From contig NC_014472.1 in the NCBI RefSeq assembly GCF_000153165.2, positions 2,786,001 through 2,850,000 on the forward strand: a DNA stretch of 64,000 nucleotides, given 5' to 3'. The stretch comes from Maribacter sp. HTCC2170. Its GTDB lineage: Bacteria; Bacteroidota; Bacteroidia; Flavobacteriales; Flavobacteriaceae. Shown here one piece after another: positions 31,579-38,113 of the stretch (the first letter of the stretch is position 1; every line of letters starts with the position of its first letter). The notes under the pieces were generated by a model that made no database searches, was not told the DNA's origin, and was given only the letters and a program-made list of their open reading frames with translations. A program made the position numbers and the translations under genes.

Positions 31579-31821
31579 ATGAAAGCAATCGTAACAATCA
31601 TCTTTATCATCTTCTTCGGAATCACTGCTCAAGCTAATAATGAAGTAAAAGAAATAGAAGTTGTAACAATTGAATTGACTGTAGTGTTGACTTTAGAAAC
31701 AAAAAATGAGGTTAAGACTGAAACTACTACTGAAGTTGCCCGTTTATACAAATTCAAAAACTCTAGAATTAAGAAAGCACTTTCTTTTACAACAAAAAGA
31801 AACAAAGCTAAAATGGCTTAA
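31579..31821 (+). CDS. Small secreted peptide, family copy 1 (80 aa)
   Basis: An 80-residue preprotein: signal peptide MKAIVTIIFIIFFGITAQA, an acidic, Thr/Val-rich middle, and a strongly basic end containing ARLYKFKNSRIKKALSFTTK. The mature form is about 61 residues with opposite charge at its two ends and no Cys. Copy 2 at 32344 has the same signal and an identical last ~37 residues, but a different N-terminal mature segment (NNEVKEIEVV versus QNNTKEVKVE). The role is unknown; the shared leader implies common strong regulation. Confidence 0.72.
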   Translation: MKAIVTIIFIIFFGITAQANNEVKEIEVVTIELTVVLTLETKNEVKTETTTEVARLYKFKNSRIKKALSFTTKRNKAKMA

Positions 31822-32343: not shown

Positions 32344-32586
32344 ATGAAAGCAATCGTAACAATCATCTTTATCATCTTCTTCGGAATCACTGCTCAAGCT
32401 CAGAACAATACCAAAGAGGTAAAAGTGGAAACAATTGAAATGACTGTAGTGTTGACTTCAGAAACAAAAAATGAGGTTAAGACTGAAACTACTACTGAAG
32501 TTGCACGTTTATACAAATTCAAAAACTCTAGAATTAAGAAAGCACTTTCTTTTACAACAAAAAGAAACAAAGCTAAAATGGCTTAA
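32344..32586 (+). CDS. Small secreted peptide, family copy 2 (80 aa)
   Basis: An 80-residue paralogue of the peptide at 31579, with signal MKAIVTIIFIIFFGITAQA and the C-terminal KFKNSRIKKALSFTTKRNKA block unchanged. The first ~12 mature residues differ (QNNTKEVKVETIEM). The near-identical flanking DNA shows a recent duplication or gene conversion; the variable patch lies just after the signal cleavage site. A bidirectional terminator follows and is shared with the convergent arsM. Confidence 0.72.
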   Translation: MKAIVTIIFIIFFGITAQAQNNTKEVKVETIEMTVVLTSETKNEVKTETTTEVARLYKFKNSRIKKALSFTTKRNKAKMA

Positions 32587-34107: not shown

Positions 34108-34284
34108 TTTTTACCGTCAAAAGGCAGCTTTTACCGTTAAGCTGTTTTGGGCCTGTTCCTGTTGACCGATGTAATTTTGCACTTTATCCTAGATTTTGCC
34201 AAATACCGATAAATTAGGGCGTTCAGCGAATTGTAATCATCTAAAATACACTTGTTACGCTTAGTATTATATAACCAAGTCTAT
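34108..34284 (+). repeat. Conserved leader, divergent copy 3
   Basis: A diverged copy of the leader seen at 31399 and 32164. ACCG boxes lie at 34113, 34133 and 34165, and the middle one (ACCGTTAAG) is a full match to the LytTR half-site pattern. The blocks TTTGCACTTTATCCTAGATT, CCGATAAATTAGGGCGTTCA and CTAAAATACACTTGTTACGC are recognisably the same as in copies 1 and 2. Confidence 0.7.
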
Positions 34285-34578
34285 ATGAAAGCAATTGCAA
34301 CTATCCTCCTTATCTTCTTTTTTGGAATAACCGCCCAGGCGCAGGACATTACCAAAGACATAAAAGTTGAACCAATACTAATGACCATTGTTGACTCTAC
34401 AACTTTTGCAGCAAAAAACGATAATAGCATTGAATCACTACCAGAGTTGCTTGTTTATACAAATACAAGAGCTCCGGAATTGGAAAACCGCTTTCTTTTA
34501 TTGCAAAAGGAAACAAAACAAAAATGGCAAAAATTAAGGTACGACATACGAAGCAATAGGAACAAGGTTCGCTATTAG
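34285..34578 (+). CDS. Small secreted peptide, divergent family copy 3 (97 aa)
   Basis: A 97-residue preprotein. I start at ATG 34285, which gives signal MKAIATILLIFFFGITAQA, almost the same as copies 1 and 2; the TTG-type start at 34252 lies inside the leader. The mature part is different: acidic and Thr-rich (DITKDIKVEPILMTIVDSTT), then a basic Gln/Lys/Arg-rich end. Charge layout (acidic then basic) is kept while sequence is not. This supports a fast-evolving family under shared control. Confidence 0.65.
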   Translation: MKAIATILLIFFFGITAQAQDITKDIKVEPILMTIVDSTTFAAKNDNSIESLPELLVYTNTRAPELENRFLLLQKETKQKWQKLRYDIRSNRNKVRY

Positions 34579-34670
34579 TACGCTCTTAATATTTGTGTTT
34601 ATTCAAGAGCACAATTTCGTTATCGGCTACTGTATGTTGGGGGTCCCGTAAAGTATGTATTATACACCTT

Positions 34671-36297
34671 GTTGTACTCAGTTTTCTTCTTCTTTTTCAA
34701 GCCAAATACTTTTCAAGGGATATATTTCTGCACTTGCGATGCTAAAAGTTCTATTATTGGTAAATAATGAAATGGTATTGAATTCTTTTGAAGGAAAAAA
34801 TATACTTGTAAAACTTAATTCCCCATTATTGATGAAAATTTCAACAGAAGCAGCATCAATAATCATGCGTATGTTCATTTTTTCCTTTTCAAAATCAATT
34901 GGTACAGAATGAACACTTTTGAAGAAGTCATCGGAAAACTTATCCTTTTGAGAATTGGTTCTATCGACGAACATTTTTCTCTCACTTTTATTAAATTTAA
35001 TTAAAACGTTCTCTCCTATTTCATTTTGAAGTTTAATACCAAATGAATTGGCTGTTGTTTTCTTTAAATCCACTGTTAAGTCTAATTCAGCTTGCGAAGT
35101 GGAAAATGAACCTTCCAAGACCTTTTCTCCTAGAATATCTATTTGGCTATAGGTAGTAGATTCTCCTCTTAATGTTTTAAATTCCTTTACAGGTAAACTG
35201 TATAAAGAATAATCTGATGTAGATTTTACCAAGGTTAATTCCCTTGGCAATGTCATTGCACTTCTCCAGTTCTCCGTTGGAACAACTTGAGCATATTGCC
35301 AATTGGACATCCATCCTATACCAATTATTCGACCATCTTCTTTCGGTACGTTATTCCAAGTCACAAAAGCATAATTGTCCGTCCCCCAGTCTAACCATTT
35401 TTGATTTTCAATTTCACTTTTAAATACTGTTCCATCAAAATCACCAATAAAATAAGAAGTCGCTGTGCCATCGTTTGGCGCATTTTTTTGAATACTGACA
35501 AGTAATACCCATTTATATTCATTTGTACCCTCAACTTTAATCGGAAACAAATCAGGACATTCCCATAAGCGTTCATCGGCTTCAATTCCAAAATCTGAAA
35601 GAAATTCCCAATCGATAAGATTAGCCGACGAATAAAACTTTACGCGATCATAGGCTGCCAATACTAATATCCACTTTTGTGATGGTTCATGCCAAACTAC
35701 TTTTGGGTCTCTAAAGTCTTTAATTTTTTCAGTATTGGGAATTACAGGATTGCTTGCATATTTTATCCATTCATAACCACCATCTAAACTAAAGGCAATA
35801 CTTTGTTTTTGAAAATCATTTGTTTTCGCTTTCTCACCAACAAAGTCATGATGGGTAAATGTGGCTATTATTGGAGGGTTTTCTTTGGTTCCAAGCTTTG
35901 AGGTATTATTGTTATCAACAATAGCCCCGCCAGAGAAGATGCATCCTAATGAATCTGGAAATAAGGCTATTGGAAGATGTTTCCAGTTAAGCAAATCGGT
36001 TGATTCAGCATGCCCCCAATGCATTGGACCCCAAACTGTACTATCCGGAAAATACTGGTAAAAAAGGTGATACTTTCCTTTATGGTAATACATACCATTT
36101 GGATCATTCATCCAATTTGCCTGAGGGGTAAAATGAAATTGAGGACGATGAGTTTCTTGATATAGATTTTGAACTATTGGTGTAGTCATTTCTTTTTCTC
36201 CTTTATTGTTATTGCATCCTAAGATGAAAATAAGCATTAGAGTCATAGATATTCTTAAAATTATAGTCTGCTTCATGTCAAATTAATTGCGTACAAC
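34671..36297 (-). mobile_element. Integron-cassette-like unit carrying the GH32 gene
   Basis: Read on the - strand, the unit starts GTTGTACGC just before the GH32 start and ends at GAGTACAAC, which overlaps the TGA stop. The two are complementary except for one base. Such matching ends around a single gene, with the stop inside the second core, are the layout of an integron cassette. No integrase is present in the window. Confidence 0.4.
34678..36276 (-). CDS. Glycoside hydrolase family 32 beta-fructosidase, lipoprotein
   Basis: A 532-residue GH32 enzyme that hydrolyses fructans or sucrose-type beta-fructosides. The signal peptide ends at Cys21 (FILGCNNN). Catalytic features are WMNDPNG (nucleophile Asp58), FRDPK (188-192, transition-state Asp) and ECPD (acid/base Glu239). 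A five-blade propeller is followed by a C-terminal beta-sandwich with FINNGELSFTSIFFP. It is likely surface or periplasmic. No SusC/D, fructokinase or transporter adjoins it, and its ends look like cassette boundaries, which suggests it arrived alone. Confidence 0.9.
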   Translation of the reverse strand: MKQTIILRISMTLMLIFILGCNNNKGEKEMTTPIVQNLYQETHRPQFHFTPQANWMNDPNGMYYHKGKYHLFYQYFPDSTVWGPMHWGHAESTDLLNWKHLPIALFPDSLGCIFSGGAIVDNNNTSKLGTKENPPIIATFTHHDFVGEKAKTNDFQKQSIAFSLDGGYEWIKYASNPVIPNTEKIKDFRDPKVVWHEPSQKWILVLAAYDRVKFYSSANLIDWEFLSDFGIEADERLWECPDLFPIKVEGTNEYKWVLLVSIQKNAPNDGTATSYFIGDFDGTVFKSEIENQKWLDWGTDNYAFVTWNNVPKEDGRIIGIGWMSNWQYAQVVPTENWRSAMTLPRELTLVKSTSDYSLYSLPVKEFKTLRGESTTYSQIDILGEKVLEGSFSTSQAELDLTVDLKKTTANSFGIKLQNEIGENVLIKFNKSERKMFVDRTNSQKDKFSDDFFKSVHSVPIDFEKEKMNIRMIIDAASVEIFINNGELSFTSIFFPSKEFNTISLFTNNRTFSIASAEIYPLKSIWLEKEEEN

Positions 36298-36383
36298 GCT
36301 TAGTTAAGTTGAGTTTTAATTCTTTTAAACGGTTGATTACGAAGTTAGCTGAATTTGTTTTATGAATCAACTGATAGCGTGCA
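36294..36383. repeat. Direct repeat A of the cassette-like region
   Basis: Starts CAACGCTTAGTTAAG and contains GAAGTTAGCTGAATTTGTT. It matches repeat B (38024) at about 60 of the first 66 positions by hand alignment and more loosely for ~25 more. It lies just upstream of the GH32 gene. Confidence 0.75.
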
Positions 36384-36585
36384 GGACTCTACTTAGTTTA
36401 TCTGCAAAAAAATTTTACGTATTATAGATTTTGGAGTTAAGAAACGAAGTGGATAGTTTTCGTTATCGTGTTCGTGTATGGTTAGTTGCGTTGGCAAGAA
36501 CTAAGTTAGCAAAAGAAAACGAACCAGAGGAAAATCCGTAGGATTTTCCGAGTACACATATAACAAGCAATTAAATATACACGTT
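36298..36585. other. Spacer between the two cassette-like genes (attC-like body)
   Basis: No gene. It contains repeat A, a perfect 9-bp inverted repeat GGAAAATCC-GTA-GGATTTTCC (36529-36549), and ends in TAAATATACACGTTG. Read on the - strand its start (AACAACGTGTATA) resembles the sequence after the GH32 stop (AACAAGGTGTATA), as expected if each gene carries its own recombination site behind it. Confidence 0.45.
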
Positions 36586-38027
36586 GTTAGGTGTCGTTTT
36601 TTTTACTTGGTAATGTTGGAAATTTCACAATTTTTCCGAGACCATCTGAAATCGCTTTTCGGCACGCTTTCTTAAATTTTGCATTTTTATTTTGCTGTAA
36701 AAAGTTGGTCACAACAAATAATTCTGCAGTTTTTATAAGTGCGATTTTTTCTCGTTCTGCACCTGTTTTGCACTTTTTTGTAAAATCTAAATTTCTTTTT
36801 ACTGGCTCTACAAGTCTTTGTGGATTACCAAACAAAATTCCAAATGCTTTTTCTTCTACATCCTCTCTTGCAAAATCTGCATTTAATGATTCAAGTAACT
36901 GTCGAAATTTGGTGATATTTATATCCTTTGCGTCTTTTCCTTCACATTCTCCTATATATCTCACTTTTTCAGGGCTCATAATTACTTGGTCTAATTCTAA
37001 TTCTCCGTCGTCATAGTTTTCTGCTTTATATCCAAGAATATCAAGTGCTTTAGTTACAGCATCTTCTAGTGGTTTACCTTGTTCGAACAATAAATCTTTC
37101 AGTTGATTCTCAGATTCTAGTTCTTGATTAAAATTTTCAATCTTTTTTTTGAGTTTTTCTATGTCGCCTAAACTCTTTTTGATTTGAGTTTCAATTTTTA
37201 AGGATCTTTTGGTAAAGTAATTTTTATCAAGTGACCATTTCGGTGGAGGAGTTTTTTCGGAGCTTGAAGATAACTTTGCGTCAATACCAATTAAGACTTC
37301 AGATAGTTTATCTCCAAATTTTTTAGCCTCATCAGTCCAAAATTCTTTGTCAGTCTTTTTATCATATTTCACAAATGAATTGTAATCATATTTTATTTTA
37401 GGTAAAATTACAAGATGACCTGATTTTCCTTTAATAATTGCTCCTAGTATTTTTGATTTATCTTTTCCGTGATATGTTATTAATGCATTTTCACTATTTT
37501 CTATGTAAGATTCGTACTTTAAGTAATCTTTAAAATTTCTATTGAAGTCACTTAATATTTGATTTCCATTAAATATTAGACGATTACCAGAAGCTGAAGT
37601 GATGTTTCCAATATTTATTGGTAAAAAGTCATAGTTAGATTTAGTTGTTGTAGAGTATAAATTTTCTCCTTTTCTTGGATGTGTTACTCCAGTTGCTAAT
37701 GAAAATTCCTTTTTTTCTGCAAGAAATAAAAAAACTGTTTTTCCTTGTTTTAGAGAATCAGAAACTTCTTTTTTTAAATTACTAGAATGTTTGGTATATC
37801 TACTCGTTGTTTCTGTATCGTAACATGCTCCACCTGATGAAAAACGTATCCGGTCTCCATTGGGAGAGATTTCTTCTGGTGAAATAATAATTATGTCCGC
37901 ATCCATTAAGGATTTACTTGAGTCAAAATATATATAATTCTCTGATTGACCAGGGATTTCGAAACCAATTGAAAGTATATCCTTTTTCTTATTCATATTG
38001 TTTGGTAGTTGTAAATGACACCCAACG
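36586..38027 (-). mobile_element. Integron-cassette-like unit carrying the orphan gene
   Basis: Read on the - strand it starts GTTGGGTGTC and ends GACACCTAAC, complementary except for one base. GTTGGGT fits the attC core GTTRRRY and ACCTAAC fits RYYYAAC. The TAA stop of the gene is inside the second core. Confidence 0.45.
36587..37996 (-). CDS. Orphan protein with PD-(D/E)XK-nuclease-like C-terminus
   Basis: A 469-residue protein I do not recognise as a whole. Residues 1-240 form an alpha/beta domain with DADIIIISPEE and GKTVFLFLAEKK, reminiscent of a nucleotide- or glutamine-amidotransferase-like fold but lacking a clear active site. Residues 265-305 are a Lys/Glu-rich coiled coil. Residues 305-400 have Glu311, Asp336 (LELDQVI) and ECEGK (350-354), in the order and spacing of a restriction-endonuclease-like E-D-ExK core. 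AT-rich even for this window. A defence or DNA-processing role is an inference from the nuclease-like core and the cassette setting. Confidence 0.6.
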   Translation of the reverse strand: MNKKKDILSIGFEIPGQSENYIYFDSSKSLMDADIIIISPEEISPNGDRIRFSSGGACYDTETTSRYTKHSSNLKKEVSDSLKQGKTVFLFLAEKKEFSLATGVTHPRKGENLYSTTTKSNYDFLPINIGNITSASGNRLIFNGNQILSDFNRNFKDYLKYESYIENSENALITYHGKDKSKILGAIIKGKSGHLVILPKIKYDYNSFVKYDKKTDKEFWTDEAKKFGDKLSEVLIGIDAKLSSSSEKTPPPKWSLDKNYFTKRSLKIETQIKKSLGDIEKLKKKIENFNQELESENQLKDLLFEQGKPLEDAVTKALDILGYKAENYDDGELELDQVIMSPEKVRYIGECEGKDAKDINITKFRQLLESLNADFAREDVEEKAFGILFGNPQRLVEPVKRNLDFTKKCKTGAEREKIALIKTAELFVVTNFLQQNKNAKFKKACRKAISDGLGKIVKFPTLPSKKNDT

Positions 38028-38113
38028 CTTAGTTAAAATGAGTTTTAATTCCTTTTAACGGTTGCTAACGAAGTTAGCTGAATTTGTTAAAACTATCAAT
38101 AGTTAGTGTACAA
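38024..38113. repeat. Direct repeat B of the cassette-like region
   Basis: Starts CAACGCTTAGTTAAAATGAG, same orientation as repeat A, 1730 bp away. It lies just upstream of the orphan gene start. The remaining ~48 bp to the DUF4386 stop hold nothing I can name. Confidence 0.75.

Follow-up and report, generated by a model that had tools for sequence, protein, structure and literature searches.

The window, a stretch of 64,000 nucleotides of Maribacter sp. HTCC2170 (C1:2786001-2850000 on C1, the single 3.87-Mb contig of this genome, G000), carries two adjacent genes on its - strand, each within a unit with complementary ends, named cassettes A and B. Cassette A (36467..38025, 1559 nt) starts at the TT of its 5′ core GTTGGGTGTC (38017..38026), and its last letter is the G before ATAACGAA. 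Its gene (36587..37996) encodes 469 amino acids (aa) and has its TAA stop inside GACACCTAAC (36586..36595), the 3′ complement of the core, at which an attC-like site of the ~120-nt class begins (36467..36595; delimited by blocks in family genomes, a covariance match and its fold). Cassette B (34624..36296, 1673 nt) has the core GTTGTACGCA (36288..36297), a gene for a 532-aa protein of glycoside hydrolase family 32 (GH32; 34678..36276) with its TGA stop in the 3′ complement TGAGTACAAC (34671..34680), and an attC-like site of the short class with a weak fold (34624..34680). The two genes are very probably mobile cassettes of an integron-like system, apparently run by a family of Bacteroidota tyrosine recombinases.

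Cassettes A and B and the sites that hold them

An earlier note on this DNA had compared the pair to integron cassettes, each gene preceded by a GTT core and ending in its near-complement with the stop codon inside. All of these elements were present, with 9/10 positions complementary between core and own 3′ end in unit A and likewise in unit B; the first core fits GTTRRRY and the second does not, as the note had it, and the shared sequence that it saw behind both stops stands there as AACAACGTGTATA and AACAAGGTGTATA. Counting both strands, the window has 59 open reading frames (ORFs) of 100 aa or more, and exactly two of them, the genes of A and B, had an own-core pair, defined as a GTT core at most 120 nt upstream and its complement at the stop, with at most one mismatch in 7 and AAC fixed. 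The 469-aa protein of cassette A had no Pfam or NCBIfam match at E ≤ 0.001, and PADLOC gave only a weak NsnC match (E 0.0085); its stretch LDQVIMSPEKVRYIGECEGKD, judged by eye, could be part of a nuclease.

A covariance-model search of the genome recovered the attC-like site of A as C1:2822466-2822588 (E 4.3e-16), and the block 36589-36467 was found at about 80-95% identity in many family genomes. Since many of these matches end at G36467 (query position 1704), the crossover is placed between G and TT, and that of cassette A would lie between G38026 and T38025. Folded as a circular site, A formed a long hairpin (-23.0 kcal/mol on the top and -27.1 kcal/mol on the bottom strand) and B a weak one (-6.2 and -7.2 kcal/mol, respectively). 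Folding of the cores with the spacer into a hairpin, on which the comparison with attC had been made to depend, was thus clear for A and weak for B, and it was also seen in 35 sites elsewhere.

The 66-bp direct repeat reported before both genes has exactly 60 identities and a spacing of 1729. It is part of a 115-nt repeat at 78% identity, lies outside the cassettes, one copy before each, and looks like a receptor site with promoter-like sequence. On the - strand, cassette A is preceded by the promoter-like TTG-N20-TAACTTCG (38069..38099) and the left half of a receptor hairpin (TTCGTTAGC AACC GTTAAAA...TTTTAAC TAAGC G; 38026..38072) and directly followed by the right half, ATAACGAA (36459..36466); the corresponding features of cassette B are TTG-N20-TAACTTCG at 36340..36370, the left half at 36297..36343 and ATAACGAA at 34616..34623. 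A third copy of the 66-bp repeat, at 3.032 Mb (L032; Lnnn denotes fetched loci and Gnnn compared genomes), precedes a cassette with a 10/10 own pair. Behind all three units ATAACGAA complements TTCGTTATC, or a one-base variant of it, left of the hairpin. Joining the flanks gives TTCGTTATC..GTTAAAA..TTTTAAC..GATAACGAA as the fold of the 3.032-Mb copy and a weaker hairpin for window B, and the minimum-energy fold for window A is a different one, so that a restored receptor hairpin is clear for one copy only. A -33-like TTG occurs in two of the three copies in G000, and the promoter of the receptor would drive the cassette.

The receptor element was matched at E ≤ 0.001 in 15/249 family genomes including G000, mostly over a short length; of the 20 places, at most 11 were inspected in context, two in G248 and those in L315-L323 being left out. 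Three copies were counted in G000, three in G121 and one in G164, with GTT (G000, G164) or ATT (G121) as the core that follows, and the copies of G121 and G164 carry TTG-N-TAACTTCG plus the hairpin. The G164 unit has an exact pair (GTTGTGCCTA, TAGGCACAAC) and one G121 unit an 8/10 own pair; the script found none for the other G121 units or for G209.

Beside the cassettes lie three small ORFs on the + strand (31579-31821, 32344-32586 and 34252-34578) whose starts are related (MKAIVTIIFIIFFGITAQA and a variant). Repeated DNA on the opposite strand is shared by the first two as well, a local duplication.

Arrays, cassette ends and the spread of units

No integrase lies near the pair, as had been noted. 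The search for a tyrosine recombinase that the earlier note proposed found one of 375 aa (C1:2616771-2617895; the sole match of the genome at E ≤ 1e-30), about 203 kb off and about 600 nt from a tRNA gene. Directly behind it on the same strand stands the main array (L029) of 20 units, c1-c20, which were delimited by hand, the 3′ end of each being chosen as the best match to its own core. Eight of the 20 are perfectly complementary over 10 nt and six have exactly one mismatch (14/20 with at most one); most of the perfect units are close to the recombinase, and the three that pair worst, c16, c19 and c20, are distal ones. By spacer length, c1-c15 and c17 form three classes (39, 111-118 and 181-183 nt). 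In 20/20 units the cassette strand carries the longest ORF, and c10, c15, c16 and c19 have room for a second gene; as in integrons, these are tandem cassettes of one orientation, usually with one gene each. Pfam families were matched in 14/20 of these ORFs, among them beta-lactamase fold, cupin, hydrolase, VIT transporter, erythromycin-esterase, M23 peptidase, GMC oxidoreductase, cyclase, amidohydrolase and glyoxalase. Cassettes of the erythromycin-esterase family, the beta-lactamase fold and the glyoxalase/bleomycin-resistance family (L029:6840-8693, L029:13558-14700 and L028:9954-10373) were observed, and the cassettes could possibly form a pool of resistance-type genes.

Many other genes of the genome are flanked in this way; had the repeats flanked none, the cassette comparison would have lost its ground. 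Searches by DNA, pattern and covariance model placed further sites at 2.595-2.615, 2.770-2.777, 3.03, 3.192-3.201, 3.707 and 0.603 Mb, and the covariance-model search, which had been suggested as a check, gave 24 genome sites of the ~120-nt class at E ≤ 0.01, window A included. The second array (L033, 3.19 Mb) has no recombinase gene beside it.

Decay of cores bears on whether A and B are fossil cassettes that have become fixed while the main array may be active. Each window core pair has one mismatch, ATAACG replaces the GTT core at the right borders, and distal units of the main array have decayed cores as well; however, one mismatch is common in the array (6/20) and the L032 unit in the third receptor keeps its 10/10 pair. 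We regard fixation of the window pair as a serious possibility that falls somewhat short of probable.

The complementarity of unit ends was measured with a hidden Markov model (HMM) built from 11 G000 spacers with the variable core letters excluded, which hit 111 full-length sites among the fetched loci at E ≤ 1e-3, with AAC standing at the left edge of 109. In 64 consecutive same-strand attC-like pairs lying 250-4500 nt apart, nine of them from the G000 array, the 3′ end matched its own core at 4.97/7 positions on average and the core of the next cassette at 2.97/7 (63 cases; shuffled mean 2.64, highest of 2000 shuffles 3.38). The own match was 7/7 in 22/64 pairs and at least 6/7 in 36/64. 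Where an attC site of another class separates two units, the case is scored as a miss, and the test is thus biased against the effect. Complementary ends, corresponding to R′ and R″ of attC, are thereby a property that these units share with integron cassettes. Chained exact 10-nt GTT pairs numbered 43, 35, 21 and 8 in four locus sets, compared to 0-4 for seven control triplets; the mostly non-Bacteroidota set had 3, against 0-4 for controls. A chance origin of the pairs was ruled out by the control triplets, the shuffles and the 2/59 ORF count. Of the cores, 101/104 fit GTTR and 3/104 fit the integron consensus GTTRRRY.

Position 11 is A in 101/102 5′ ends and its partner C in 93/109 3′ ends. 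In 36 well-paired units position 11 never matches, and positions 12-14 match again (0.86, 0.94 and 0.81), giving an A.C mismatch on the top strand and a T.G pair on the bottom strand. The bottom strand was the more stable one in 34/35 circular attC-like sites, with a mean difference of -4.59 kcal/mol; it was favoured in 275/350 dinucleotide shuffles (mean -1.16 kcal/mol) and in 136/350 random windows. Integrons are described, in abstracts of the literature, as recombining via the bottom strand, and we infer that the folded bottom strand would be the substrate here too.

When the first part of the main array was searched as DNA in 249 family genomes and the best cases were fetched, a match at E ≤ 1e-20 was obtained in 192/249, many of which reflect no more than a homologous gene or an attC spacer. 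In other genera, units of the array are seen again with about 85-94% DNA identity and different neighbours. Only c4 is shared by G222, at 88.6% over a stretch of 1451 nt that starts 2 nt ahead of its core and reaches 5 nt into the next one; the flanks are unrelated. In G135, c3 is directly followed by c9 (about 85%), so that c4-c8 are absent and the order is new. Homology starts exactly at the core for c6 in G253 (85%) and c10 in G159, and one nucleotide inside the core for c10 in G245 (94%), where it ends before attC. Unit c3 recurs in G022, G162 and G089 at 87-89%, and the homology of G190 and G206 to c4 and c12, which begins inside the unit, is uninformative on borders. Presence or absence of units at the cores, proposed earlier as a comparison between strains, is thus seen between genera, for main-array units that are present or missing as a whole or nearly so. 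The comparison (G222, G253, G159, G245, G135 and the point at which attC homology stops) agrees with a G/TT crossover and cassette mobility as known from integrons, and the sequences strongly support the reading of these units as mobile cassettes.

The same borders bear on the view that the units do not move and that their complementary ends and spacers serve as transcription terminators or regulatory RNAs, a view for which one may point to hairpins at gene ends and to RNA families that could exist outside Rfam. Rfam matched only a tRNA in L028, L029, L030 and L033, the 3′ end of a unit is matched by the 5′ end of the same unit, which lies far from the hairpin, and units recur across genera with homology that stops at cores, in one case reordered. 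A role as terminators only was rejected on this recurrence with core borders, and immobile units of this kind are very improbable.

The recombinase family and its relation to integrons

Of 588 relatives, 80 were retained as loci, and 57 of these were inspected downstream. The assignment of compared genomes to Bacteroidota or to the family rests on the named relatives of the window. The groups used for the control triplets, the attI-like motif, the TAnnTTTG box and the array test were defined by locus number; the non-Bacteroidota group wrongly includes L133 (Pontibacter) and L153 (Aureispira), and the Bacteroidota group includes L112 (titled Undinarchaeales) and L120 (titled Firmicutes). Named loci and compared genomes may overlap, several loci coming from one genome in some cases.

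By a strict exact-pair test, arrays stood behind 30/59 Bacteroidota integrases with at least 1.5 kb downstream, including those of Winogradskyella ursingii, Seonamhaeicola aphaedonensis, Algibacter onchidii, Zunongwangia mangrovi and Rufibacter sp.; 21 Bacteroidota and 8 other loci with less sequence were dropped, L112 (823 nt) and L120 (934 nt) among them, and L123 was outside the test. Upstream of the integrase the same test was positive at one locus by each of two criteria, and of the loci filed as other phyla 1/30 was positive, namely L133, in fact Pontibacter. The proportion with arrays was 11/16 at 50% or more identity to the G000 protein, 9/19 at 40-50% and 10/24 at 30-40%. The draft contigs L067, L068, L075, L275, L276 and L278 end 0.1-1.9 kb behind the recombinase gene, as if arrays break assemblies, and the system may thus be under-counted.

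In many loci the first core lies 23-205 nt behind the integrase stop in the same orientation, and in closer relatives a short hairpin and then GTT were seen there by eye. The motif ATAWA(R)CNAGTTR occurs at most 250 nt from the stop in 25/92 loci and in 0/37 others, with a background of 9 in 2.73 Mb; by position and sequence, an attI-like site thus stands beside the integrase gene, as attI does in integrons. The attI-like hairpin of G000 recurs almost unchanged at 3.19 Mb (L033:3815-3850), where it heads the second array. In G253 (L206), ATATAACTAGTTG stands directly before the relative of c6, and no tblastn match to the recombinase (E ≤ 1e-15) was found in this 18-kb stretch. Furthermore, a TAnnTTTG box, which we take to be the flavobacterial -7 promoter consensus, lies near the integrase stop in 25/90 Bacteroidota loci compared to 148/1603 background windows, and it is possible that a platform promoter reads into the first cassette.

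Position and distribution support a role of the recombinase in cassette movement. The alternative is that it is a mere neighbour and that the cassettes are moved by a different enzyme, such as an HUH transposase that uses hairpins, or Xer. Many integrase loci without arrays speak for another mover, as does the fact that the single family recombinase of the genome (E ≤ 1e-30) leaves the window pair, the L032 unit and the L033 array without one at their side. Against it stand the first cores close behind the integrase stop, the scarcity of such structures upstream or in other phyla and the recurrence of the attI-like motif behind the integrase, and we consider another mover quite improbable.

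In an alignment of 15 members, R235, K260, H324, R327, H350 and Y359, the catalytic set of tyrosine recombinases, are invariant. The recombinase was matched at E ≤ 1e-30 by 41/60 relatives, including Xer-like proteins at about 110 bits, and the family alignment matches 115/395 genomes of the phylum at E ≤ 1e-70, some of them without arrays. Between KG and HxLRH lie 64 aa in the G000 protein and 63-69 aa in the Bacteroidota members measured, compared to 106 aa in IntI1 and in L156 and L158, two Planctomycetota integrases; only proteins in which both motifs were recognised were measured, which leaves out L121. The IntI-specific insertion is thus absent from the G000 recombinase, and its match to VchIntI skips about 60 residues of the latter. 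Its best NCBIfam score was for NF040815 (218.4 bits, cut-off 220). In the AlphaFold model (mean pLDDT 82.4, pTM 0.60), roughly 80-100 additional residues at the N-terminus form strands and helices, a region without a Pfam match; the best structural match was XerA (5hxy) and the best sequence match 4a8e. Xer recombinases resolve chromosome dimers at a single dif site, and another Xer-like protein (L026) is encoded in the genome.

The system could also be an ordinary integron whose true IntI has diverged and secondarily lost the insertion, in which case the novelty would lie in the taxonomy alone. The recombinase still scores 210.6 bits with TIGR02249, the NCBIfam model of the integron integrase, VchIntI (2a3v) is its second-ranked structural match, and the insertion is described as not fully conserved in an integron-like subgroup in a passage of PMC8138268. 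However, the score does not reach the cut-off of 265, and the match falls into two parts at the insertion. In a tree made by a quick method with few IntI references and rooted for drawing only, the array-bearing rows are on one branch (starred label 96) with other Bacteroidota rows inside, and IntI1, the two insertion-bearing Planctomycetota integrases and L160 are on a separate one (starred label 99), which places the recombinase outside the IntI clade; the rarity of GTTRRRY cores also argues against this alternative. A divergent true IntI is therefore unlikely. Membership in the classical integrons was rejected on the TIGR02249 score, the missing insertion, the tree and the core consensus. 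The geometry of attC cassettes seen in the earlier note is upheld, with the refinement that this is not a classical integron, that the integrase is distant and that the repeat lies outside the cassettes.

Integrons comprise IntI, attI and attC cassettes, and IntI is usually divergent from the cassettes. With integrons such as class 1 and the Vibrio superintegron, the present system shares tandem cassettes of one orientation with complementary ends, the GTT core and a probable G/TT crossover, a platform site next to the integrase gene, the favoured bottom-strand hairpin and cassettes common to several genera. It differs in the recombinase, which has no IntI insertion and has an extra N-terminal domain without a Pfam match, in integrase and cassettes being on the same strand, in complementarity over 10 bp with cores that rarely fit GTTRRRY and the conserved A.C (bottom T.G) at position 11, and in occurring mostly in Bacteroidota. 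It resembles Xer/XerA in the best NCBIfam score and the best sequence and structure matches; unlike these, the recombinase heads cassette arrays with attI-like sites and has the extra domain. A CALIN (cluster of attC sites lacking an integrase) is defined in a passage of PMC9668308 as two or more attC sites with no integrase and with less than 4 kb between them. The window pair, with attC-like (not recognised attC) sites about 1.8 kb apart and no nearby integrase, answers this definition, whereas its attC type is another and each cassette sits in its own promoter-bearing receptor instead of one array.

In plasmids of Acinetobacter type, the recombinase gene tpnF before tet(X3) (L304:4052-4913 and L305:2967-3822) is 53% identical to residues 143-375 of the recombinase. 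As to an array origin of tet(X3), no attI-like motif was found, and even the closest complement of a core behind this gene has 3/10 mismatches. A Pontibacter kalidii plasmid typed as mobilizable (L307:8843-12500) carries a family recombinase with same-strand genes behind it and two exact 10-nt own-core pairs, and it is perhaps a plasmid-borne version of the system.

A proposed scenario and its significance

Considering the anatomy of the units, the complementarity of their own ends, their spread between genera with borders at cores, the association of arrays with the recombinase and the absence of the IntI insertion, all found by computation, we propose the following scenario. A cassette would be freed as a circle. 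Its first ~10 nt (GTT plus 7) and last ~10 nt (7 plus AAC) are complementary, so that the joined ends and the spacer would fold into an attC-like hairpin. A tyrosine recombinase of the Bacteroidota family, here the 375-aa enzyme about 203 kb away, would cut between G and TT, and the circle would be inserted at the attI-like site behind the recombinase gene or at receptor hairpins elsewhere. Cassettes A and B would sit in two neighbouring receptor copies whose promoter-like sequence reads into the cassette, and the recombinase would have acted on the window in trans.

Several observations weigh against this scenario. In the window, neither core pair is perfect (9/10 each), and chained exact GTT pairs number 0, compared to 0-3 for seven control triplets, one of which reaches 3. 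At the window locus in 11 genus mates, the neighbour gene had no match at E ≤ 1e-40, and an empty receptor hairpin, searched as the exact pattern with no mismatch allowed, was found in 0/60 genomes. Among the recombinase loci, 29/59 testable Bacteroidota integrase loci have no array by the strict test, and no exact pair was found downstream in L264, L266, L269 and L279. The own-versus-next table of the main array is biased and illustrative only, because the 3′ ends in it were picked by own-core match, and for c11 the next core is a better partner of the 3′ end than the core of the unit itself. The test with the spacer model is the fairer one, though this model was seeded with G000 spacers and 9/64 pairs come from that array. 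The shuffles also favour the bottom strand, so that base composition accounts for some of the bias, and among six additional sites made by hand c5 lacks the preference. Finally, the insertion absent here is called essential for integron function in a passage of PMC8138268.

With the IntI insertion missing, the recombinase outside the IntI clade and cores that misfit, the system works like an integron and fails three defining tests of one. It may thus be a second integron, evolved in Bacteroidota independently of IntI, with an insertion-less recombinase that has its own N-terminal domain and takes up cassettes by way of folded bottom-strand hairpins, strand choice by T.G, and scattered promoter-bearing receptors that accept cassettes in trans, a proposal that we consider evenly poised between right and wrong. 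According to passages of the respective papers, Bacteroidota are listed among the phyla with integrons (PMC8618304), IntegronFinder 2.0 detected one complete integron in Bacteroidetes proper, in Salinibacter, an earlier study having reported no more than integrase-only elements there (PMC9024848), and a Tenacibaculum genome checked with the same program contained no integron (PMC10013915). Among the matches listed, no paper described the present system by title or abstract, preprints and most subscription journals lying outside the scope of the search.

If the proposed system is real, a common cassette-capture system has been overlooked in Bacteroidota, its recombinase family being present in 115/395 genomes of the phylum, though not all with arrays, and its cassettes would offer a gene pool for study. 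The insertion called essential in IntI would be dispensable for the recombination of hairpin cassettes, and what a tyrosine recombinase needs to act on folded single-stranded sites would become directly testable.

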